DNA of 64,000 bases from positions 1-64,000 of the IMG/VR virus record IMGVR_UViG_3300042868_005134. One strand, given 5' to 3'. The translations under genes were made by a program, and so were the position numbers. How positions within the stretch are numbered: position 1 is the first letter of the stretch; each line of letters begins with the position of its first letter. Positions 1-39,157 of this stretch are shown in pieces. A model generated the notes under the pieces. It saw only the letters and a list, made by a program, of their open reading frames with translations, was not told where the DNA came from and ran no database searches. This DNA is from a virus.

Positions 1-77
1 ATGCCGAACTTGCCGTCAGTAATGGCAGCAAATGCATTTGAGCATACTAACAATAAGGCTAATAATATCTTTTTCAT
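1..77 (-). CDS. Exported protein, 5' end only (partial)
   Basis: The first 25 codons of a gene that runs off the left edge. The ATG lies at 77-75 and overlaps the TGA of the FecR-like gene as ATGA, which argues for a coupled downstream gene. The peptide starts MKKILLALLLVCSNAFA followed by AITDG, a typical Sec signal peptide with an AFA cleavage site. Function cannot be told from this fragment, but its place at the end of the csgF-csgG-curlin-FecR run suggests another envelope or extracellular component of that system. Confidence 0.75.
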   Translation of the reverse strand, partial: MKKILLALLLVCSNAFAAITDGKFG

Positions 78-1246
78 CTGAAATTCTGATTGATAACAAT
101 CTGCCCCACTGCTTTACCGCTGCTAAAGTTCCAGCTGTTAGTCTGCATGTCCTGTGTAACAACGACCTGCACCTGTGTATTGATAGGCATAACCACATTG
201 GCATAGTTTCTACTATTAGGGCTTAAACTTTCATACTGCCAACCAACCTGTTGTGTTTCGCTCTTGTCTTTCCACAATTTCTTAACATAGGGATTTTCAG
301 TGTCACTGACTGCGGCTACATCATTAACTAGTGCATCTTTATTTCCAGCTGTATCTAGTCCAATCTTGGTTCTATTCTCAGGATCTTCGTCACCCTCATT
401 GGCACTACGACCCTGCTTTGCCGAACGAGCACCACCGCCTTCTTTGTTGGCAGCTTGTTGTCGTTCTTCTTTAGCATCATCCTTGTCTTCTTTATCTTCT
501 TTCTTGTCTTTGTTATCTGACTTTTTAGCATCGCCTGTGGCCACTGCGGCAGCACGAGCAGCAGCAATAACATTTAGGCCGGTAGTTGTTCGTGGCGGAT
601 TAACCATTAAATTGTTGCCAATGGCCATACCGTTAAGAGCAACGACAACAGCAGGGCTAGGCATGCCATTTAGTGTTTCGACTAAAGTAGCTTGATAAGG
701 ACGATTCAACTTAACGATACCTGCTGGTGTTTCCACATCAATAGCACCACTGCCACAGGTAAGACCTTTAAGGTTTACATTTTGTTCTATTTCACAACGT
801 GGCATCAGCATGATCATGCTGGCGCCGGTTTCGCTCACAGCCATGACAAAGTCAGTGCCACGAACAGCAATGGCCGCTGTGGGTGTGTTGATTTTTACGT
901 TCTTGGGATCTTTGGCTATACTGCCTGACACATAACGAACTGTTCCTGCGGCTGCTTTAAGCCCTAACTTACCCGCGCCGCTTTTAGGATCATATACAAA
1001 ATCGTCAATAACAAGGCTACTGGACTCAGTAACAGTAACATTTGTATCGTCTTTAAAAACAATCTTAACCTTACCGTTCTTGGTTTCAATCTTGTCATTA
1101 ACTTCAATTACTGTGCCTTTGGCAATCTGGATTGTATCCTTGCCGCGCTTGATAATGGCAGTACCGGACGATTCAGTGACCGACCCAATATTTGCCCATG
1201 TAGAGCATGTTATTAATAAGCCGACAGCAAGGATGGCAATTTTCAT
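74..1246 (-). CDS. Exported FecR-domain protein
   Basis: 390 residues with a Sec signal peptide (ends near CSTWA) and then a FecR-type beta domain at about residues 20-150. It shows the family pattern of alternating beta strands ending in VKINTPTAAIAVRGTDF, where TPTA-x-RGT is the FecR hallmark. The second half (about 240-300) is a Lys/Glu/Asp-rich, probably disordered or coiled stretch, followed by a small C-terminal domain. There is no transmembrane anchor, so it is predicted to be periplasmic or secreted, not a sigma regulator. It follows the curlin gene by 9 bases and overlaps the next exported gene by 4. Its role in curli-type export is inferred only from position. Confidence 0.8.
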   Translation of the reverse strand: MKIAILAVGLLITCSTWANIGSVTESSGTAIIKRGKDTIQIAKGTVIEVNDKIETKNGKVKIVFKDDTNVTVTESSSLVIDDFVYDPKSGAGKLGLKAAAGTVRYVSGSIAKDPKNVKINTPTAAIAVRGTDFVMAVSETGASMIMLMPRCEIEQNVNLKGLTCGSGAIDVETPAGIVKLNRPYQATLVETLNGMPSPAVVVALNGMAIGNNLMVNPPRTTTGLNVIAAARAAAVATGDAKKSDNKDKKEDKEDKDDAKEERQQAANKEGGGARSAKQGRSANEGDEDPENRTKIGLDTAGNKDALVNDVAAVSDTENPYVKKLWKDKSETQQVGWQYESLSPNSRNYANVVMPINTQVQVVVTQDMQTNSWNFSSGKAVGQIVINQNFR

Positions 1247-1255
1247 TGCCAGTCC

Positions 1256-2044
1256 TTAGTTCTTCTGTGTTATATTGAACATGCCACTGTTGGACACACT
1301 CTTGATGTTGATAACGCTGTCAATAGTACCAGTTTGACTCAAGGTAAAAGTATTGCTGTTGCCTGTTAAGTCCACCCAAATACTAGAACCAGCGGCACCT
1401 GTTGAGCGTTGGTTGATATCAAATGTATTAGTGTCACCTACCACTTTGATAGTTTGGCTATGCTTGTTACCAATAGCATCGATACGGAATATATTACTGT
1501 CGCCTGTGACATCAACTGCGCTCTTTAGATCATCGCCAGTACCACGGAATTGGAAATCGTTACTGTCGCCAGTGAACTTCCAATTGAAGTCAGCAGCCTT
1601 ACATCCCGATAATGCTGTAGTACCATCGCTGGCATTCCCGTAACCGCAGGCAGCATCAACTCTATTGTTGTCACCAATTTGCTGAATAGTGATGTTAACA
1701 CCTTGTCCAGTTCCGGTGGTGTTGTTTACCGCTTCTAAACTGATTTCATTGTTAACACCAATTTGACGAGTAACGATGGTTTGGTCAATACCACGTAGGT
1801 ATATAGGGCGGCCGCCACTGCCAGCAGCATTGCCTGTGCCGTCTTGTGTCATATTGACATTAGGGTTGTCACCGCTTTGGTCGATAAAAATTTTGTTGGT
1901 TGTAGCAATGGCCAATGCAGCTGTTGCGTTGGGACTAACTGTGACCATGTTTGGAATCACAGGCGCACTTGGTGCTGACACAGCGGTCTGGGCCATTACT
2001 GGAAATGCCGCTGCTAATAATATTGTTATAATTGTTTTTTTCAT
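1256..2044 (-). CDS. Curlin-repeat (CsgA/CsgB-like) secreted protein
   Basis: 262 residues with a signal peptide (MKKTIITILLAAAFPVMA). The mature part is rich in Asn, Gln, Gly, Ser and Thr and carries spaced repeats of the type hydrophobic-x-G-D/N-S/T-N-x-F/I (for example VTGDSNIFRID, VVGDTNTFDIN, LTGNSNTFTLS) plus QQIGDNN and a final NITQKN. This resembles curlin repeats, which form beta-solenoid amyloid. Repeat spacing is less regular than in E. coli CsgA and there is a two-Cys insert near residues 130-150. It lies directly downstream of csgG with an AGGAGA ribosome site, so it is the likely cargo of the CsgG pore. Amyloid formation is inferred, not shown. Confidence 0.75.
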   Translation of the reverse strand: MKKTIITILLAAAFPVMAQTAVSAPSAPVIPNMVTVSPNATAALAIATTNKIFIDQSGDNPNVNMTQDGTGNAAGSGGRPIYLRGIDQTIVTRQIGVNNEISLEAVNNTTGTGQGVNITIQQIGDNNRVDAACGYGNASDGTTALSGCKAADFNWKFTGDSNDFQFRGTGDDLKSAVDVTGDSNIFRIDAIGNKHSQTIKVVGDTNTFDINQRSTGAAGSSIWVDLTGNSNTFTLSQTGTIDSVINIKSVSNSGMFNITQKN

Positions 2045-2072
2045 TATATTCTCCTAACCTTGTGGGTTATTT

Positions 2073-3026
2073 TTATTTTGTTGATGTGATTGGGTTTCCG
2101 TTGCCATCAACTGCGTTTGTTGTAACTTGGTTTGATCCCACAGTTTTTCCGCTATCGGACTGCTGTGGTGCGGGTGTAGCTTTGGTTGTGTCCTGGGCCT
2201 TGGTTTGTGTTTGAACCAACTCATTAGGTTTCTCCTTGAATTTCCACAAGCCGTTGCGTTCGCCTTTATTAATCAACTCGATAACTGCTGTTTCAATAGC
2301 TGAACGAAGAGCATAGTTACCTGGTTCGTTGAATGTTTGGCTAGAGTCAAACTCAAATGCTTGAGTAGCTTGGTTGAAAAACTTCAACGCTGTGGCGCCA
2401 TCGGCGGTGCTGAGCAAGTTCTTCTCCACTGTTACTGTGGTTAAGACTTCGCCAGTTTGAACACTGACTAGACGTAAACTGATAACAACCACGTCCTGTG
2501 TGTAGGCAGTCTGTGCTCCGATACCAAATATTCTAGCACCTGTTCCGCCTGTTAGTGTGTTGCTGTTGTAGTCAATGATGCCGCCTTCTAGTATAACGCC
2601 GGCCATCTGTAATGGAGGTAGCATTTTAGCGTTAGCACCGTCATAGATTTCACGAGTCTGTTTAATCATCTGACGCTCTTTTAACAAGTTGTCAAGGCCA
2701 ACACGTTCAACAACTGTGAACCATTGACGATTGCCAACTTCTTGTAAACTTTTCATTAGGTATGCTTCTGCACCCTGTGTAACTGCTGTAGAGAACAAGC
2801 TGAGTGTTGAACTTGGTTTACGCTGTCCTGTTAGGTCTTTAAATCCATACACTGCTACTGTTACTGCTGGGCCTGCTGGTGCGGGCACATTGGCAAAACT
2901 CTTGTTGATAGTGTTTGAAACTGTGGCTTCTTCTTTGATTTTTGTGTTACCCAATGGGCGTACTGTTGAGCAGCCTGCTAGAGCTACTACGGCTAGTGTG
3001 ATTAAGGATAGTTTGATTGCGTTCAT
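2073..3026 (-). CDS. csgG: CsgG-family outer-membrane curli secretion lipoprotein
   Basis: 317 residues. It has a lipoprotein signal peptide with lipobox LAGC, then the CsgG fold across residues 45-270. Segments matching E. coli CsgG by eye include VAVYGFKDLTGQRKP, FSTAV, VVERVGLDNLL, GGIIDYNSNT, GGTGARIFGIGA and ALRSAIETAVIELI. The last 50 residues are a Gln/Thr/Asn-rich tail not found in E. coli. CsgG forms a nonameric outer-membrane pore that exports curlins. In the constriction loop, E. coli YPASNF is replaced by SSTLSLF, so the Tyr and Asn that gate the channel appear lost while Phe is kept. The gene starts 9 bases after csgF, and no csgE is visible. Confidence 0.95.
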   Translation of the reverse strand: MNAIKLSLITLAVVALAGCSTVRPLGNTKIKEEATVSNTINKSFANVPAPAGPAVTVAVYGFKDLTGQRKPSSTLSLFSTAVTQGAEAYLMKSLQEVGNRQWFTVVERVGLDNLLKERQMIKQTREIYDGANAKMLPPLQMAGVILEGGIIDYNSNTLTGGTGARIFGIGAQTAYTQDVVVISLRLVSVQTGEVLTTVTVEKNLLSTADGATALKFFNQATQAFEFDSSQTFNEPGNYALRSAIETAVIELINKGERNGLWKFKEKPNELVQTQTKAQDTTKATPAPQQSDSGKTVGSNQVTTNAVDGNGNPITSTK

Positions 3027-3035
3027 ATGTTCTCC

Positions 3036-3515
3036 TTAAAAACTAAAACTGGCAATTGGAACTACTACTGTAGTCACTGTGCCTTTGGCATCCACCACTG
3101 TTAGTGTGACTTTGTCATTGGCTTTTGCCCAAGTAACTGTATTACCATCTAGGGCAAAAGTTCCAGTTGTTGGATTGACACAACCAGGAATTGCTGTGCC
3201 ATCTGCGGCACTACATTTGTTTGTGAATAGGTTGTTGCTTAACTGTGTGGCCAGTTGAGCATATATTTGACTTTGAAACAGACTCATAAATCTATTCAAA
3301 GGAGTGTTTAGCAGTTCTGCTTCTGCTTTGGCAATGGCAGCTTTTTTGTCTGCTTCGATAGCGTCTTTACGTGACTTTTCAATACTGTCAATCGTCAAGA
3401 CGTGGCTGCTGAATCCAATGCCGCTAAAGGCTGGATTTTTAAATTGTTGTACTAGCTCTGCTTGCGACACTGTCGCAATCGCACTTAGACTTAGTGATAC
3501 TAAGATTTTTTTCAT
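3036..3515 (-). CDS. csgF: CsgF-like curli assembly protein
   Basis: 159 residues with a signal peptide ending SQA. The mature N-terminus ELVQQFKNPAFSG matches the CsgF signature TFQFRNPNFGG, the segment known to insert into the CsgG channel and form its second constriction. A helical Ala/Glu/Lys region follows (about 45-80), then FMSLFQSQIYAQLATQLS, corresponding to the CsgF helix, and a C-terminal beta domain with a two-Cys insert. It is first in the curli-type operon, directly upstream of csgG. The FKNPAF motif plus the neighbour makes the call firm, although overall identity to bacterial CsgF looks low. Confidence 0.9.
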   Translation of the reverse strand: MKKILVSLSLSAIATVSQAELVQQFKNPAFSGIGFSSHVLTIDSIEKSRKDAIEADKKAAIAKAEAELLNTPLNRFMSLFQSQIYAQLATQLSNNLFTNKCSAADGTAIPGCVNPTTGTFALDGNTVTWAKANDKVTLTVVDAKGTVTTVVVPIASFSF

Positions 3516-3526
3516 CGGTTCGCTCC

Positions 3527-3548
3527 CGGTTACAAAAGTATTTAACCG
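3527..3548 (-). promoter_or_regulatory. Candidate late promoter and inverted repeat before csgF
   Basis: Upstream of csgF the minus strand reads GGTTAAATACT (TAAATA core at 3544-3539), 24 bases before the ATG. A 6-bp inverted repeat, CGGTTA/TAACCG with a 10-base gap, frames the core (3527-3532 and 3543-3548). The TAAATA core matches the T4-like late promoter pattern seen elsewhere in this window. No sigma70-type -35 was seen. Confidence 0.4.
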
Positions 3549-3575: not shown

Positions 3576-3947
3576 TTAAAGGATAATTAAAATGTATGCC
3601 ATTGCCATATAGCATACTTGATGGGCTAGTTGATCTAGGCCAAACTGGTTCCAAAACAATGGTTTAGTATTGTCCTTACAACCGTATTTTACTTTTGTGT
3701 AATCGATTGTGTAATGTAGTATACCTTCTACGAACACGATAGGAATGATTAACTGAGCATTAATTGGAAATAATATTGCGAAAACCAGTAAGGCAACCAA
3801 CGAGCACCAGATATGATCCATAGTATGACTTATGCCGATCGGGTCTAACCACACGCCTTTTTTGATAGTTTGCATGTAGGTTTGAATCTTAAAATCAGCG
3901 TACCAGTGCTTGATTTGTAGCAGGGTTAAAAGTGCTAGTATTTCCAT
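3576..3947 (-). CDS. DUF3307-like small membrane protein
   Basis: 123 residues with about three hydrophobic helices. It shows the polar pattern I associate with DUF3307: an early WYADFKIQT, a central HTMDHIWCS, then ILHYTIDYTKVKYG and FGLDQLAHQVCY, that is conserved H/D/Q residues within membrane helices. Function unknown. It stands between the curli operon and the 596-residue protein. There is no Shine-Dalgarno sequence: the ATG is only 7 bases after a TAAATA core (3960-3955), one of several genes here with a leaderless-looking start. Confidence 0.6.
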   Translation of the reverse strand: MEILALLTLLQIKHWYADFKIQTYMQTIKKGVWLDPIGISHTMDHIWCSLVALLVFAILFPINAQLIIPIVFVEGILHYTIDYTKVKYGCKDNTKPLFWNQFGLDQLAHQVCYMAMAYILIIL

Positions 3948-5801: not shown

Positions 5802-6482
5802 TTAGCGAATTTCAGGGAACAAGCAGTCCTGAATGAACACTTTTACATCTTCTTCGTTTAGCCCTAGACTAGCCATAACTTTAGGAGTATGCGGATTCTG
5901 CTTTTGATTCTGTGCGTAGAAGTTCTGTGCGTCTTTAGTGCTTTCCACAGTATTATTAGTTTCTGACACAGTGGCAAGGTAATGATTTAAATTCTTACGT
6001 GCCATGGCAAGAATCTGAGTTAGCTCTTCGCCTTCGCTTACATTGCCTGCTGCCACCATGTGTTTGGTAAAAATACGTTGTGCCCAATCGGGTAATGGGC
6101 GTGGCTTGTTCCATTCTAGCTTGCTAGATTCATGTTCGAACCAGTCAATCATAGGATGGGCTGGATCTCCGGCGGGACTGAAATCATGAAAACAACCGGT
6201 AATTTTATTCTTACCTGCTACTACATCAAAGCCAAATATTGGTGCTGGATTGTGTAAGTGCGGAAACACACAGCAATGCATCATCCAAAGACCCCGAGTG
6301 TCTCTAGCATCTACTATGTCAATGTGCGCTCTACGGTAACTGTCGCTTTCCCACACCAAGTTAACCCACCCTGGTTTGTTAAAACGATCCATATTTTTTT
6401 CATGTAATAACCAGCCGCTGTTGTGAAAGGCTATTTCGAAATATTCTTGTACATCTACAAGTGTGTTCCAAACTTGACTCAT
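5802..6482 (-). CDS. pcyX: Ferredoxin-dependent bilin reductase, PcyX type
   Basis: 226 residues of the HY2/PcyA family. Core segments are RRAHIDIVDAR, MMHCCVFPHL, APIFGFDVVAGKNKIT and CFHDFSPAG. The HC-x-FP His and the Asp of HDFSP align with catalytic His88 and Asp105 of PcyA. At the PcyA Glu76 position I read Asp (HIDI). The enzyme reduces biliverdin with ferredoxin; phage PcyX is known to make phycoerythrobilin. The ATG at 6482 overlaps the heme oxygenase TGA as ATGA, which decides this start over longer in-frame alternatives. Substrate comes from the upstream heme oxygenase. PebS or PcyA activity cannot be excluded from sequence alone. Confidence 0.85.
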   Translation of the reverse strand: MSQVWNTLVDVQEYFEIAFHNSGWLLHEKNMDRFNKPGWVNLVWESDSYRRAHIDIVDARDTRGLWMMHCCVFPHLHNPAPIFGFDVVAGKNKITGCFHDFSPAGDPAHPMIDWFEHESSKLEWNKPRPLPDWAQRIFTKHMVAAGNVSEGEELTQILAMARKNLNHYLATVSETNNTVESTKDAQNFYAQNQKQNPHTPKVMASLGLNEEDVKVFIQDCLFPEIR

Positions 6483-7018
6483 AATTCTGTGTTCAACGCT
6501 TTCATCAGTTTGATAGCCCACTCGAAAGCCACTCGAGCTTCATCGCCCAGGTCATCTGTGAGTTCTGCTCTAATTGCTGCCTTAAGAGCTTCTGAATCTT
6601 TAAACTGATAAAATCTGCCTTGTCCTGGAACTTTTTTAGCAATTATTTGTCCGCCAAACAAATCGCCCATGTGTCTACAGTACAGGTGAGCCTTGACTAG
6701 ATGTTTACGATCACTGTAGTTGAGTGCTAGTAAATATTGATAGTAATCAATAGTTGCGGGCAACCATTTAAGTTGATGGTTGGGTCCGACTAGTTCAATA
6801 CAATCTTGATAAATTTTATGTGCTCGTTCAATGTCGGGTAAGTTTTTTAACATACCCTGGCTATTTGCAGCTACCTCAATGCCGTTATAAACAAGTGTCA
6901 TTTGCCAAAGATAATTGGCGTATTCTTCTGTTGAAATACTGCCTGTAACTAATTTTTTGGCAAACAGCGTTCGTTCTGCGTCCGTGTGTAAATCTTTTGT
7001 TATGTCTCGTAAGCTCAT
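6479..7018 (-). CDS. hemO: Heme oxygenase
   Basis: 179 residues, compact for the family. The proximal heme ligand lies in DLHTDAERT and the distal helix in YCRHMGDLFGGQIIAKKVPG, matching the GDLSGGQ signature. It cleaves heme to biliverdin, iron and CO using reduced ferredoxin or a similar donor. Both ends overlap neighbours by ATGA: clpS upstream and the bilin reductase downstream. So all three should be translated from one message, with biliverdin passing to the reductase. Paired phage heme oxygenase and PcyX cassettes have been described from oceanic viral sequences. Iron release may also matter, given the Fe-S and ribonucleotide reductase genes nearby. Confidence 0.93.
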   Translation of the reverse strand: MSLRDITKDLHTDAERTLFAKKLVTGSISTEEYANYLWQMTLVYNGIEVAANSQGMLKNLPDIERAHKIYQDCIELVGPNHQLKWLPATIDYYQYLLALNYSDRKHLVKAHLYCRHMGDLFGGQIIAKKVPGQGRFYQFKDSEALKAAIRAELTDDLGDEARVAFEWAIKLMKALNTEL

Positions 7019-7317
7019 TCTTCCTCCATCTTTATTTGAAGCGGAAAACCGTTGCTTCTTGCGAGTTGTGTTGACTCTACTGCTTTTGCTTCAGCAATTT
7101 CAAAACTGTACACACCAGCAACGCCGCTGCCTGTATTATGTACCTCTATTGTGATTCCTTTAGCAGTTTCCTGAGTGTGCTTGAAGATATCTGTAAGTAT
7201 ACCCACAACAAAATCCATGGGTGTTGTTTCGTCATTTAGTAGTAATACTTTCCAACGTTTAGGTTCATGAATTTTCTGTTTGATTTTTTCATCAATTTGA
7301 ATTTCGGTAGTTGACAT
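7015..7317 (-). CDS. clpS: ClpS-like N-end-rule protease adaptor
   Basis: 100 residues from the ATG at 7317, chosen over an upstream TTG because GGAGA lies 6-10 bases before it. It has a flexible charged N-terminus, then WKVLLLNDETTPMDFVVGIL, a matching VH residue and GSGVAGVYSFEIAEAKA, all ClpS hallmarks. The ND-T-PMD segment forms the N-degron pocket with the later His. ClpS delivers proteins with destabilising N-termini to ClpAP. The ORF is followed with a 4-base overlap by heme oxygenase. In a phage it could redirect host proteolysis or compete with host ClpS; this is inference. Confidence 0.92.
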   Translation of the reverse strand: MSTTEIQIDEKIKQKIHEPKRWKVLLLNDETTPMDFVVGILTDIFKHTQETAKGITIEVHNTGSGVAGVYSFEIAEAKAVESTQLARSNGFPLQIKMEEE

Positions 7318-7333
7318 AATATTCTCCAAAAGT

Positions 7334-7365
7334 GGGAGAGAACAACTCCCCCGGTTTTATATTTA
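7334..7365 (-). promoter_or_regulatory. Candidate late promoter plus 5' hairpin before clpS
   Basis: The minus strand reads GTAAATATAA over the hsp20 stop codon (TAAATA at 7365-7360). Seven bases on, at the expected transcript start, is a hairpin GGGAG/CTCCC (7350-7346 with 7338-7334, 7-base loop). The clpS ribosome site follows. The same promoter-hairpin-ribosome-site order recurs at four other genes. Confidence 0.45.
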
Positions 7366-7788
7366 CTTGATTTCGATTCTACGAGGCTTAAGAGCTTCTG
7401 GTACAAGACGGTGTATGTCAATTTGTAACATACCGTGTTCTACTTTGGCGCCGCGAACTTCCATATACTCAGCAAGAGTAAATGTCTGTTCAAAGTCACG
7501 AGCTGCCAATCCACGATGTAAGTACTCAACTCCAGCATCTGCGTTGGGTCGATTTTTAATACCACGAATTGTTAATTGGTCCTGATCCACTTCTACAGTA
7601 ACTTCTTCTTTATTGAAGCCTGCCACTGCAACTTCAATAGCATACGTATCGTCGCTATATTTTACAATATTGTGCGGAGGATAGTTACCATTTTGGTGAT
7701 GTGTCGCACTGAAGTAGCGATCAAATCCTACTAGTGCTCTACTTAGTTGGGCAAGGTCTGCCGCGTTGATAGTTCTTAGCTGTGTCAT
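7363..7788 (-). CDS. hsp20: Small heat-shock protein (Hsp20, IbpA-like)
   Basis: 141 residues, close to E. coli IbpA in length and pattern. It has a GFDRYF segment before the alpha-crystallin domain, then YPPHNIVKYSDDTYAIEVAVAGF, a conserved YLHRGLAARDFEQTFTLAEY, VRGAKVEHGMLQIDI and the terminal PEALKPRRIEIK. It is an ATP-independent holdase that keeps unfolding proteins soluble for DnaK. It sits between dnaK and clpS in the same direction, with AAGGAGA before the ATG. T4-like cyanophages commonly carry hsp20; this one is of the proteobacterial IbpA type. Confidence 0.95.
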   Translation of the reverse strand: MTQLRTINAADLAQLSRALVGFDRYFSATHHQNGNYPPHNIVKYSDDTYAIEVAVAGFNKEEVTVEVDQDQLTIRGIKNRPNADAGVEYLHRGLAARDFEQTFTLAEYMEVRGAKVEHGMLQIDIHRLVPEALKPRRIEIK

Positions 7789-7818
7789 AATAATCTCCTT
7801 TGATAAGCAAGAATGAAT

Positions 7819-7842
7819 GAGGGCCTTGTTATAAGCGCCCTC
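7819..7842 (-). other. Intercistronic hairpin between dnaK and hsp20
   Basis: A 6-bp GC-rich stem, GAGGGC/GCCCTC, with a 12-base loop lies 30 bases before the hsp20 start. It lacks a following T-run on the minus strand, so it is not a standard terminator. After it comes ATTCTTGCTTA, the same 11 bases found between the dnaK leader hairpin and the dnaK ribosome site. This suggests a duplicated or conserved leader element controlling stability or translation of both chaperone genes. Confidence 0.45.
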
Positions 7843-7854
7843 GTTTGGTTTTAA

Positions 7855-9750
7855 TTAAGCCTTGTCTTTGACTTCGGTAAACTCTGCGTCTACAATGTTG
7901 TCATCGTTGGGCTTGGGTTGGCTGTCAGCTTGTTCAGCTTTGGCCTTGGCTTCCATTACTGGCATGCCCGCAGTGAATAAATCGCTTGTGGCCTTTTGAA
8001 TGGCTTCAGCGTCATCACCTTGTTTAGCATCCTCTACAGCTTTAATAGCATCTTCGATAGCAGTCTTCTGCTCGTTGGTCAACGAGCTTTCAACTTCTTT
8101 CATATCAGTGCGTAGGCTGTGTACAGATGCTTCCGCTTGGTTACGTGCCTCAATGAGTCCACGTTGTTTCTTGTCAGCTTCAGCGTTAACTTCTGCTTCC
8201 TGAACCATGCGTTCGATTTCTTCCTTGGTAAGTCCACTATCACTCTTGATAGTGATTTTGTTTTCCTTGCCTGTGTTCTTGTCCTTGGCGCTGACATGCA
8301 TGATACCGTTGGCGTCGATGTCGATAGTGACTTCAATTTGCGGTTGTCCTCTACGGCTAGGAGCGATGCCTTCTAGGTTGAACTCACCTAACATTTTATT
8401 GTATTGGAACAGTTCACGTTCACCCTGTGCTACCTTGATAGTAACAGCTGGTTGATTGTCTTCTGCTGTACTGAATGTTTGACTAGCTTTGGTTGGAATA
8501 GTTGTGTTCTTGTTAATCAACTTGGTAAACACGCCACCCATTGTTTCAATACCCAAGCTCAATGGCGTAACGTCTAACAATAACACGTCAGTGCGGTCGC
8601 CTGCTAGTACACTGCCTTGAATGGCTGCGCCTGCGGCAACTGCTTCGTCTGGGTTAACATCACGACGTGGTGCTTTGCCAAACAGTTTCTCAACTGTTTC
8701 TTGTACCTTAGGCATACGTGTCATACCACCAACAAGAATAACTTCATCAATGTCAGAGGCTGTGACGCCTGCGTCACTCATAGCTATCTTACATGGCTTA
8801 ACACTACGCTCGATGAGTTCTTCAACTAGACTTTCTAGTTTAGCACGATTGATCATGATGTTCATGTGCATCGGGCCGCCGGCATTGGCAGTAATGTATG
8901 GAAGATTAACAGCCGTTTGTTGTGTGCTAGACAATTCAATCTTGGCTTTTTCAGCTGACTCTTTCAAACGCTGTAATGCCAACACATCAGTCTTAAGATC
9001 CACACCTGTATCTTTCTTGAACTCGTCAACAAGGAAGTCCATGATACGTTGGTCGAAGTCTTCACCGCCTAGGAATGTATCGCCGTTAGTGCTTAATACT
9101 TCGATCTGTTTGTCGCCATCTACTTCCGCAATCTCAATGATTGATACATCGAATGTACCGCCACCAAGGTCGTAAACAGCAATTTTCCTATCTTTTTTAT
9201 CAGACTTATCAACACCATAACTAAGAGCTGCCGCAGTAGGCTCGTTGATAATACGCAGTACTTCCAAGCCTGCGATTCGGCCAGCATCTTTAGTTGCCTG
9301 ACGTTGACTGTCGTTAAAGTACGCAGGAACTGTGATAACGGCTTGAGTAACTTCATGTCCTAAATAGTCCTCGGCTGTCTTCTTCATCTTGCGAAGAACT
9401 TCAGCACTAATTTGTGGAGGTGCAAGTTGCTCTCCATTTGCTTCGACCCAAGCATCGCCATTGGCTGCTTCTGTAATCTTATAAGGCATAAGCCCTATGT
9501 CTTTTTGTACTGCTTCTTCTTTGAACTTTCGTCCAATGAGACGCTTGGCAGCATAAATTGTGTTTTTGGGGTTTGTAACTGCTTGACGCTTTGCGCTTGC
9601 GCCTACTAGAATTTCATTGTTAGCATAAGCAACAATACTTGGTGTAGTACGTGCGCCTTCGCTATTTTCAATTACTTTTGTAACACCGTTTTCAATAACG
9701 GCTACGCATGAATTTGTGGTACCTAAATCGATACCGATGACTTTGCTCAT
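7855..9750 (-). CDS. dnaK: Full-length Hsp70 chaperone DnaK
   Basis: 631 residues, almost the length of E. coli DnaK (638). The nucleotide-binding domain has [14 protein letters not shown] at the start, [13 protein letters not shown] and [11 protein letters not shown]. The substrate domain has [17 protein letters not shown], and the helical lid ends in [14 protein letters not shown], like the bacterial terminus. There is no intein, truncation or missing motif. It needs DnaJ and GrpE partners, not seen in this window, so presumably uses the host's. It heads a dnaK-hsp20-clpS-hemO-pcyX run and has its own late promoter and hairpin leader. A complete DnaK is rare in phages, and the sequence looks recently proteobacterial. 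Confidence 0.97.
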
Positions 9751-16101: not shown

Positions 16102-16428
16102 TTAGATTCTAAATGACTCGCCGCAACCGCAACGATCCTTTTCATTTGGATTGACAAAGTCAAATCCTTCATTGAGCCCATTACGAACCCAATCCATAGT
16201 CAAACCATTTAGATATACTATACTTTTGGCATCTACCAATACCACAAAGTCAGTTTGGGCATAGTTAGTAACACCTGCTTCGGCTGTGTATTCGTCTACA
16301 TATTCTAACACATAGGCTAGTCCACTACATCCAGTAGTCTTTACACCAATACGAATGCCCACACCCTTGCCACGCTTTTCCAGATTTTGTTTAATCCGTT
16401 TACTTGCTGTGTCGGTTACGGTAATCAT
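16102..16428 (-). CDS. iscA: A-type iron-sulfur carrier (IscA/ErpA/HesB family)
   Basis: 108 residues of the HesB fold. The three cysteines that bind the cluster are present: TTGCSGLAYVL and the terminal DRCGCGESF. It accepts or passes on Fe-S clusters made on IscU. It starts inside the end of iscU (29-base overlap), so the two are coupled. IscA versus ErpA cannot be decided here. Likely clients are ferredoxin for the heme oxygenase and bilin reductase, or host enzymes during infection. Confidence 0.92.
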   Translation of the reverse strand: MITVTDTASKRIKQNLEKRGKGVGIRIGVKTTGCSGLAYVLEYVDEYTAEAGVTNYAQTDFVVLVDAKSIVYLNGLTMDWVRNGLNEGFDFVNPNEKDRCGCGESFRI

Positions 16429-16783
16429 TTACGGCCGCTTTGATAGCATCTTCTGCTAGGATACTACAGTGTATCTTAACTGGGGGTAAGGCTAGTTCTT
16501 CAGCAATTTCCGAATTACTAAGTTTGATAGCATCATCAAGATGCATTCCTTTAACCATCTCGGTGACAAGACTTGAGCTGGCGATTGCTGAACCACATCC
16601 ATATGTCTTGAAACGAGCATCTCTAATAATGCCATCACTGTCAACCTTTATCTGTAATTTCATTACGTCGCCGCAAGCAGGTGCACCAACCATACCAGTA
16701 CCAATATCAGGATCACTCTTGTCAAAAGATCCGACATTCCGGGGATTTTCATAGTGATCAATCACCTTTTCTGAATAAGCCAT
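16400..16783 (-). CDS. iscU: Iron-sulfur cluster scaffold IscU
   Basis: 127 residues, about the length of E. coli IscU (128), and by eye about three quarters identical. The first 20 residues are the same as E. coli, and GMVGAPACGDVMKLQIKV, RFKTYGCGSAIASSS and ELALPPVKIHCS are near-identical. Cluster ligands in PACGD, YGCGS and IHCS and the LPPVK chaperone-binding loop are all present. It assembles [2Fe-2S] clusters with host IscS. The strong conservation suggests fairly recent capture from a proteobacterium. AGGAGG before the start and a TAAATA core (16810-16805) suggest strong, late expression. Confidence 0.97.
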   Translation of the reverse strand: MAYSEKVIDHYENPRNVGSFDKSDPDIGTGMVGAPACGDVMKLQIKVDSDGIIRDARFKTYGCGSAIASSSLVTEMVKGMHLDDAIKLSNSEIAEELALPPVKIHCSILAEDAIKAAVNDYRNRHSK

Positions 16784-17834: not shown

Positions 17835-18098
17835 TTAATTGGCAAACACGTTGCCTGAACCGCTAGCTGGATGGCCACATGTGGCAGGATCGCCGGCTCG
17901 ACAAACTGCTATGCCGTTGGCAAATACATTGCCGCTGCCAGCAGCCATTACAGGACTTCTATGTGGGCCGCGGCCGTGGCCTGCTACTGCATCGCCGACT
18001 CGTGCTACAGGACTACCATTGGCAAACACATTACCCGAGCCTTGAATAATGGCTCCACCGGCTGCGTCCGTGCCTGCGTTTCTTGCTATCCCAGGCAT
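17835..18098 (-). CDS. PAAR-repeat tail-spike tip protein
   Basis: 87 residues with the PAAR pattern: MPGIAR start, then repeats of GSGNVFANG followed by PVARVGD or IAVCRAGD, and His/Cys residues (GHGRGPHRSP, ATCGHP) that can hold the tip metal ion. PAAR proteins cap the membrane-piercing spike of contractile tails; T4 gp5.4 is the equivalent. It ends 2 bases before the end of the preceding virion-type gene's partner run, as expected in a baseplate module. Confidence 0.9.
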   Translation of the reverse strand: MPGIARNAGTDAAGGAIIQGSGNVFANGSPVARVGDAVAGHGRGPHRSPVMAAGSGNVFANGIAVCRAGDPATCGHPASGSGNVFAN

Positions 18099-37490: not shown

Positions 37491-38198
37491 TTAGATTTTT
37501 GTAGAATCTTTGCCTTTATACACTGTCCAGTTCAAACTTTCCACAGGAATACTAAGCCCTGGCTTATTAGCTACACCGGTAGCTGATCCAAGTCTACTCA
37601 CAAACTTAGTCTTGTCGATATATGGTACCATCTCAGGCCAGTGTTTATCAAACCAGTCGGCATCAAAGCCTGAGAGTACTTTTAACTTATGCTTTCTTAC
37701 AAAGTTTTGCATCATCTTGTGCTCGATATGCATTTGTCTCCATAGCCGATGATCTTCACCATACCATTTATAACTAGGGTATTCAATATCAAATCCTCCC
37801 GAGTCATGCCACATGTTAAAACTCATTTCAACATTACGTAGGGACATGATGACGTCAACTTCTGGTAAGTTTTCAGCAATCCAATCTAGTTGATAAGAAA
37901 ACCAGTGGCACTGTACAAATCTAATCTGATGTTGATCGTTGGTGTCGTAGGCTCTATCAATTTCTCCAAAGATTGCTTCTTTGTTAGGATACGTACTAAG
38001 TGCATCAAACTGTTCACCAATTTCATTATACGGGCCAGCAAACACTAGTCCTGTATGATGAGCTAGACTTCCTTTTGCGTTATTAACACGCCAAGGCTTT
38101 GCTCCTGACGGGTCAACGAGATTAGTAGCTGCAGACAAGTAGTATGCGGGCCACCCCCAACAGCTACCTGCAACTCCTGATATAAAAACATATTTCAT
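37491..38198 (-). CDS. Sulfotransferase-like or P-loop-like conserved phage protein
   Basis: 235 residues. MKYVFISGVAGSCWGWPAYYL looks like a degenerate phosphate-binding loop of the sulfotransferase type, and VDVIMSLRNVEMSFNMWHDSG corresponds to the R-x(n)-S phosphosulfate region (LRNV...S). I recall similar cyanophage proteins with no assigned function. It overlaps the TctC-like gene by ATGA. Proposed role: modifying a sugar or protein, in line with the nearby glycosyltransferase; low certainty. Confidence 0.5.
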   Translation of the reverse strand: MKYVFISGVAGSCWGWPAYYLSAATNLVDPSGAKPWRVNNAKGSLAHHTGLVFAGPYNEIGEQFDALSTYPNKEAIFGEIDRAYDTNDQHQIRFVQCHWFSYQLDWIAENLPEVDVIMSLRNVEMSFNMWHDSGGFDIEYPSYKWYGEDHRLWRQMHIEHKMMQNFVRKHKLKVLSGFDADWFDKHWPEMVPYIDKTKFVSRLGSATGVANKPGLSIPVESLNWTVYKGKDSTKI

Positions 38199-39157
38199 TT
38201 GGCAATAGTATCAATCAACGGTTTCCAGTCCTGTGTTTGCTTCTTCATATAAGCGCCGATTACAGCAGGAGTGTTCAAGTTAGAGTTAATTTCAAATTGT
38301 TGTTTTTTAAACAATTCTTTCAGTGCTGGGTTAGCATATGCTTTAGTGAATTCTATATGATACCATTGTAACACATCAGGACTTACATCCTTTTGTAATG
38401 CCAGGGCCCATTCTGAATTAATATCAAATCCGGGTAACACTGAATTCAGTGTGTTAATTTCTGGAAATGCTACAGATTTTTTCTTGCCGGCAATGGCAAT
38501 AATTTTAAGTTTTTTGTCCTTGTATAATTCTGAGACTATACTGATAGGAACAACAGCAAATCGTATATGCCCACCAATTACATCTGTTATTGCGAGAGTA
38601 GGGCCTCTATGATCTATACGTTGTACACCATCGACACCTTGTTTAAATTTAATTCGATTGGCTAACTCTTCATAGATTAGTCTTGCTCCGCCACTGGCAG
38701 CAAACGAAATTTTTTCATTTTTCAACACTTCCACTAATTGTGGCGGTGTTGATACAGGATCAGTTGGTAAGGTTACCACTGCAAATGCCGACTCCGCAAG
38801 ATGTATTGGATATACAAAACTTTCTGTCTTGTATGTTCTGTTTTGTTCTGATGGCACAGCAACACGGTCCATTGCGACGATTCCGTTTATGCTGGCTGCT
38901 AATACACTATGTCCATCAGCTGGTAGTTTGCTAAAATATTCGTTGCCAATGACACCACCAGCGCCTGGCTTATGTATAATATTGAATACCACTCCAGTAT
39001 TCTTGGTAACTTCTTCTGAAGTAATTCTAACCAATACTTCGTTGGCACTGCCCGGCGCAAACGGAACCACTACTTCAACTGGTTTGGTTGGTTGCCACGC
39101 AAAGGCTAAAGCTGGAACCATGACTAATACTACTAGCAATCTCTTAATTGAAACCAT
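38195..39157 (-). CDS. TctC/Bug-family periplasmic substrate-binding protein
   Basis: 320 residues with a signal peptide (ends ALAFA). The mature start WQPTKPVEVVVPFAPGSANEVLVR, then FNIIHKPGAGGVIGNEYFSKLPADGHSVL is the tripartite-tricarboxylate/Bug family signature, and the two lobes continue to the C-terminus at full length. These proteins bind small carboxylates in the periplasm and feed a TctAB transporter, which is absent here. Its presence in a phage is odd: it may alter host uptake or sequester a compound. It is controlled by a sigma70-like promoter (39215-39186) with TAGGAG before the ATG. Confidence 0.88.
   Translation of the reverse strand: MVSIKRLLVVLVMVPALAFAWQPTKPVEVVVPFAPGSANEVLVRITSEEVTKNTGVVFNIIHKPGAGGVIGNEYFSKLPADGHSVLAASINGIVAMDRVAVPSEQNRTYKTESFVYPIHLAESAFAVVTLPTDPVSTPPQLVEVLKNEKISFAASGGARLIYEELANRIKFKQGVDGVQRIDHRGPTLAITDVIGGHIRFAVVPISIVSELYKDKKLKIIAIAGKKKSVAFPEINTLNSVLPGFDINSEWALALQKDVSPDVLQWYHIEFTKAYANPALKELFKKQQFEINSNLNTPAVIGAYMKKQTQDWKPLIDTIAK

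Follow-up and report, generated by a model that had tools for sequence, protein, structure and literature searches.

At the left end of the 383,411-bp viral record IMGVR_UViG_3300042868_005134 lies a minus-strand operon whose sequence identifies it as a type VIII (curli) secretion system carried by a virus, with CsgG, CsgF, and a curlin-repeat cargo all recognized. The window analyzed in this study is the 64,000-nucleotide (nt) stretch covering positions 1 to 64,000 of that record. The full operon, csgF-csgG-curlin1-FecR-curlin2-CHASE2/cyclase, spans both ends of the contig, and its remainder was found in L056, a stretch at the right end of the record. We favor, at a probability of roughly 0.55, the reading that a curli-like fiber is exported late in infection through a CsgG-CsgF pore, and that this lectin-headed fiber would render the infected cell adhesive. 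The role of phage curli has been debated since 2020, and sibling capture, a lysis pore, import, and exclusion have all been proposed without a discriminating test. An outward-facing adhesive role is favored by two features described below, namely a late-type promoter and a conserved curlin whose heads are exchangeable and often sugar-binding; if this holds, infecting phages would engineer the contacts between cells.

The genes of the operon within the window were found nearly back to back. csgF (positions 3036-3515; 159 amino acids [aa]; Pfam CsgF E = 7.5e-12) encodes a protein with a signal-peptide-like start and, in an alignment of 19 sequences, an FKNPAFSG segment. It is preceded on the same strand by a ribosome-binding-like GGGAG site (3523-3527), read directly from the sequence, and by a TAAATA box of late-promoter type (3539-3544) located 29 nt before the start codon. 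csgG (2073-3026; 317 aa; Pfam CsgG E = 6e-51) follows and encodes the putative outer-membrane secretion pore, with a lipoprotein-type start (LAGC); next are curlin 1 (1256-2044; 262 aa; Pfam Curlin_rpt E = 2e-4), the predicted exported cargo with QxGxxN repeats, and an exported FecR-domain protein (74-1246; 390 aa; Pfam FecR E = 4e-10) that ends in a C-terminal beta-strand motif. These four genes are separated by 9, 28, and 9 nt, and the FecR stop codon overlaps the start of curlin 2 as ATGA at 74-77. These Pfam matches and gaps confirmed the original prediction of a close-packed csgF, csgG, curlin, and FecR unit. The further exported protein that it described is also a genuine gene, but only the first 25 codons of it, namely those of curlin 2, lie in the window (1-77). 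The whole curlin 2 gene (611 aa; an F5/8 type C head and weak curlin repeats) is carried by the right-end copy at L056 15469-17304, and is followed by the CHASE2 adenylate/guanylate cyclase gene (687 aa; L056 13397-15460). The interval 1-3515 that had been taken as the operon thus does contain the genes named, but holds just part of it.

Window positions 1-2813 and L056 17228-20000 aligned at 82% identity, the first 118 bases showed no differences, and the right end of the record carries a second csgG-curlin-FecR allele; the ratio of nonsynonymous to synonymous substitution rates (dN/dS) between the two alleles was 0.05-0.07. Circular closure through a strain variant is the best reading of these ends, and a tandem duplication of the cassette was judged less likely because none of 53 related loci (0/53) shows one.

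The csgG product matched the solved E. coli CsgG (E = 8e-46), and its lipoprotein-type cysteine, C19, was invariant in the alignment. The CsgF profile scored 42 bits in the genome search (cut-off 25.8); when CsgF was compared with the PDB by phmmer and by profile search, nothing significant was returned. By homology, CsgG and CsgF are predicted to form an outer-membrane pore. Neither CsgE nor CsgC was matched when the whole 383,411-bp record was searched, while the E. coli control was detected, in agreement with the absence of csgE and csgC claimed earlier. The CsgE gate and the CsgC inhibitor are accessory components that are present in E. coli but not in every curli system, and CsgE has been cited as non-essential (PMC7029224). 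For curlin 1, the Curlin_rpt match was above cut-off and the QxGxxN repeats stood at invariant positions in the alignment. An AlphaFold2 (AF2) model, with a predicted local distance difference test (pLDDT) score of 81, contained about eight regular strand-turn-strand repeats behind a disordered N-terminus. Moreover, the family profile gave a match to 8c50, a solved curlin fibril (E = 1.6e-8), and a weak one to CsgA of E. coli (8enq; E = 0.02). From its repeats and predicted fold, curlin 1 would be expected to polymerize into a curli-like fiber. Together with the conserved gene order reported below, these gene identities support the earlier proposal of a curli-type secretion operon in a phage that brings its own curlin cargo.

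Curlin 2 proved to be built of two parts. Its C-terminal curlin half and C-x5-C end are conserved, whereas its N-terminal head varies, and complete curlin 2 proteins are between 166 and 764 aa long across relatives. The head of the phage studied here matched the Pfam F5/8 type C (discoidin/CBM32) domain (E = 1.2e-8). Among 31 curlin 2 proteins, F5/8 type C heads were found in 8 and PA14 heads in 2, and F5/8 type C also occurred in curlin 2 of five of the eight distant phages sampled. A PA14 head is present in the curlin 2 of HTVC008M itself, where the protein is annotated as "hypothetical protein". In a model of a 608-aa relative (L012; mean pLDDT 68), Foldseek matched CBM32 galactose-binding modules with a probability of 1.00. 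Both the modeled jelly-roll fold and the profile match thus place the head among CBM32/F5/8 type C domains, for which sugar binding is predicted. Evidence of exchange came from two close relatives, L029 and L030, which are 95-98% identical around curlin 2 and 98-100% identical across the last stretch of the protein, yet have different heads, that of L030 being 167 residues longer. Between L030 and the phage studied here, the heads share 74-94% identity but the curlin halves only 16-43%. The most plausible reading of this pattern is that distant lineages have exchanged heads by recombination. Curlin 2 is likely to be a decorating or tip adhesin of the curlin 1 fiber. No mention of a headed curlin 2 was found in PMC9599517, PMC7029224, PMC9004378, or a text search of the literature.

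Gene order was then compared among viral relatives. In 53 IMG/VR contigs (CsgG 65-100% identical), csgF-csgG was followed by curlin 1, FecR, and curlin 2 on the same strand wherever the contig reached that far, and the cyclase was found in 30 of them. Most of the 53 also share the DUF3307 gene and a DnaK-heme oxygenase-bilin reductase stretch upstream, and therefore represent one phage lineage. A wider search returned at least 585 viral relatives, of which the best 80 were kept; these yielded 62 further loci, with CsgG down to 45% identity. The exact six-gene order was present in 33 of the 62, one more had this order preceded by DUF3307, eight had it minus a recognized curlin 2, and the remainder were mostly cut by contig ends. 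Both Melnitz and HTVC008M carry the same six genes in identical order. The order csgF-csgG-curlin-FecR, which the original prediction had proposed to look for in related viral contigs, is thus conserved in close contigs, in distant loci, and in isolated phages. When compared with close relatives, csgF, csgG, FecR, and the cyclase had dN/dS values of about 0.06-0.13, and curlin 1 values were mostly below 0.1. In curlin 2, the head (0.09-0.27) exceeded the curlin half (0.05-0.08). These low values indicate that the operon genes are maintained.

These data bear on the proposal, made for Melnitz, that CsgG-CsgF is a repurposed lysis-timing pore, that is, a pinholin-like outer-membrane leak in which the curlins are bystanders. 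PMC9004378 based this proposal on CsgG/CsgF models and synteny, and a late-type box would be equally compatible with lysis timing. Against it, the pore genes are followed by curlin 1 and FecR in essentially all viral loci that are long enough, purifying selection acts on the curlins, and the annotation of Melnitz itself includes two curlin-repeat proteins. Swappable sugar-binding heads, moreover, would have no role in a leak. We consider the lysis pore improbable. Adhesion and host capture are favored over it because the pore is almost never encountered apart from curlins, and because the most variable part of the system is an outward-facing binding head. Of the two functions offered in the original prediction, export of an amyloid-like fiber is accordingly the one that gains from two conserved curlin cargoes, one of them often with a sugar-binding head, and a lysis or leakage pore is the one that loses.

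A late-type promoter was examined as an indication of timing. Of the 45 distinct csgF upstream regions in close relatives, 44 contained TAAATA, where first-order shuffles predict 9; the box mostly stood 26-36 nt ahead of the start codon and was surrounded by diverged sequence. In distant viral loci it was found before csgF in 28 of 60 (9 expected). HTVC008M has TATAAATA at the equivalent site, and in Melnitz TAAATA was not seen before csgF. Within the window, TAAATA occurred at -24 to -38 of 10 of 63 genes, including virion structural and tail-fiber genes, and was the best placed at this distance among the 15 hexamers of its composition. Its overall frequency in the window was not above chance (29 versus 34 expected), so that the signal is positional. 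Given the TAAATA box and a gp55-type sigma factor encoded in the record, late transcription of the operon is likely. Such timing would be late for superinfection exclusion, in which curlin coats or lectin heads would mask receptors from rival phages. This was suggested for pelagiphages (PMC9599517), and a strain-variable, surface-exposed head would suit a shield against varied rivals; we therefore regard exclusion as a serious alternative, albeit an unlikely one.

The remaining two genes encode the FecR-domain protein and the CHASE2-cyclase. FecR was the sole Pfam domain of its protein (residues 51-141), behind a signal-peptide-like start. The Pfam scan did not return the classical FecR architecture, with a cytoplasmic N-terminal anti-sigma part and a membrane segment, and no search for a sigma partner was made. 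A C-terminal beta-strand motif resembling the last curlin strand was present in every one of the 90 distinct viral FecR proteins (42 expected by shuffling). In HH-suite comparisons with curlins, the FecR tail was nominally significant only (P 0.003-0.011; mid-protein control 0.82), which suggests that the tail may be curlin-like. FecR is treated as an iron-dependent regulator in PMC9599517; we read the protein studied here not as a classical iron regulator but as a probable exported partner of either the fiber or the CHASE2 sensor domain. PMC7029224 and PMC9599517 suggested that the pore takes up large nutrients or cofactors and that FecR has an iron-related regulatory role. This model leaves the curlins, CsgF, and the lectin heads unexplained, and it fits poorly with a protein in which Pfam recognizes, after the signal-peptide-like start, the FecR domain and nothing else; we consider it very improbable. 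In the cyclase, the catalytic domain was detected (Pfam E = 7.7e-15), and metal-site Asp residues and a Lys are retained. The CHASE2-cyclase may be an inner-membrane sensor that makes a cyclic nucleotide. When L005, L006, and L010 were aligned against L017, L026, and L032, the catalytic domain was also seen to occur in two types (GDSVSLTARLE and GDAVNLASRLE) in a single phage lineage. The CHASE2 part that precedes it is similar in both, which suggests domain exchange.

Taken together, these data are consistent with the following sequence of events. The operon would be transcribed late from the TAAATA promoter before csgF, and CsgG and CsgF would build a pore in the outer membrane. Curlin 1 would leave through this pore and polymerize into a curli-like fiber, which headed curlin 2, often with a sugar-binding head, would decorate or tip. 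The surface of the dying cell would thereby turn adhesive, and either neighboring hosts would be kept close for the released virions or rival phages would be blocked. A "sibling capture" role for phage curli was proposed previously (PMC7029224). More tentatively, and with clearly less than even odds, several phage lineages may build a late curli-like fiber whose second subunit bears a strain-variable lectin head swapped by recombination, thus choosing what the dying host sticks to; such a fiber would be a modular adhesion device that keeps the next victims near. The headed curlins and the late-type box make the role of phage curli directly testable through glycan binding, curlin loss, and the timing of transcription.

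Several observations weigh against the adhesive fiber. Clumping of Melnitz-infected cells was not observed under the conditions used by the authors of PMC9004378. The structure prediction proposed earlier for the curlin did give a regular strand-turn-strand model, but Foldseek of curlin 1 against the PDB returned no significant match, and a beta-solenoid therefore rests on the predicted strand pattern and the 8c50 profile match. Some curlin 2 proteins have no recognized head domain, and secretion may be inefficient or differently gated without CsgE. About seven of the 53 close relatives have no nearby cyclase in loci that are long enough. In this phage, in some relatives, and in Melnitz, the cyclase has a Ser in place of the Asn of the solved cyclase, so that its activity is uncertain. 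Finally, TAAATA is missing from the 150 nt that precede the capsid gene.

The closest known system is the type VIII secretion module of pelagiphages and methylophages (HTVC008M, Melnitz, and HTVC023P-type podophages; PMC9599517, PMC7029224, PMC9004378). The original prediction held the unit to be more complete than its pelagiphage counterparts, which was not borne out: all six genes are found on the same strand in HTVC008M and Melnitz as well, likewise without csgE or csgC, and the module csgF-csgG-curlin-FecR-curlin2-cyclase was already published in 2022 (PMC9599517). A headed curlin 2 is also shared with HTVC008M. Unlike that module, the operon described here belongs to a T4-like jumbo phage of about 380 kb, has a longer curlin 2 with a CBM32-like head, and encodes a CsgG 41-44% and a curlin 1 26-29% identical to those of the module. 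In PMC9599517 a histidine kinase is located just upstream of csgF, whereas here a DUF3307 membrane protein takes its place; no HATPase_c match was found in the whole record, and Melnitz has no annotated kinase upstream of csgF either. In nearly all related contigs the DUF3307 gene (window 3576-3947) directly precedes csgF, and in L011 and L026 it follows the cyclase; it possibly belongs to the unit. The CsgG pore, CsgF, and curlin repeats are shared with bacterial curli (E. coli csgDEFG-csgBAC and alphaproteobacterial versions). Unlike E. coli curli, the phage operon has no csgE or csgC (csgD was not searched for); unlike bacterial curli, it has its curlins downstream rather than upstream of csgF-csgG, with FecR and CHASE2-cyclase genes added and the second curlin headed. 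The Methylobacterium and Rhizobium genomes found carry curlins upstream of csgF-csgG and no FecR or cyclase nearby; a genome scan with a single CsgG sequence found no bacterial relative, whereas an alignment query did. Contigs of metagenome-assembled genomes labeled Flavobacteriaceae, Sphingobacteriales, and Pelagibacter that show the viral order were rejected as examples of a bacterial module, as they carry phage late sigma factor, UvsX, phage helicase, and terminase. What appears to be new are the exchangeable heads, the conserved late-type box, the spread through a jumbo T4-like lineage, the contrast with the bacterial order, and the low dN/dS.

The carrier is a T4-like jumbo phage. Its record encodes a T4-type capsid protein (E = 1e-82), a terminase, and a gp55-type late sigma factor (E = 8e-25), and large tail-fiber genes lie within the window. 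The nearest capsids (69-72%) are those of jumbo phages, among them Sinorhizobium phage Phosso, Vibrio phage 2.275.O, Pseudomonas PA5oct, and Serratia BF. In INPHARED, CsgG relatives were found solely in Melnitz isolates, HTVC008M, and one 1.5-kb Salmonella phage fragment; the isolated jumbo relatives in that database therefore have no CsgG. In the CsgG tree, sequences with the viral order were split from bacterial sequences by one branch (support 98/96), and the jumbo lineage formed a single clade (100/100). That the stretch is bacterial DNA, misassembled into a virus or misclassified as one, might be thought from the occurrence of csgF-csgG in bacteria and from the DnaK and ClpS-like genes in the window. 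Given the virion and late sigma genes in the record, the tail fibers in the same window, a neighborhood that recurs in dozens of viral contigs, and a CsgG that groups with phage sequences, the likelihood of this is close to negligible.

Several neighboring genes were also noted. A ferredoxin-dependent bilin reductase gene (window 5802-7018; Pfam E = 9e-16) adjoins a heme-oxygenase-like gene, and the pair is kept beside the curli operon in most related jumbo-phage contigs. ClpS-like, Hsp20-like, and full-length DnaK genes stand in a row at 7015-9750 and form a phage-borne chaperone/proteolysis set that is conserved upstream of the operon. A TctA tripartite tricarboxylate transporter membrane protein (Pfam E = 7e-91) and TctC-like binding proteins are encoded at L056 7996-10534 and window 38195-39157. 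Also encoded, at window 16102-16783 and 17835-18098, are a NifU/IscU-like protein for Fe-S cluster assembly (PHROG E = 1e-41), which has a small conserved partner next to it, and a PAAR-type protein of the spike tip (E = 2e-23).

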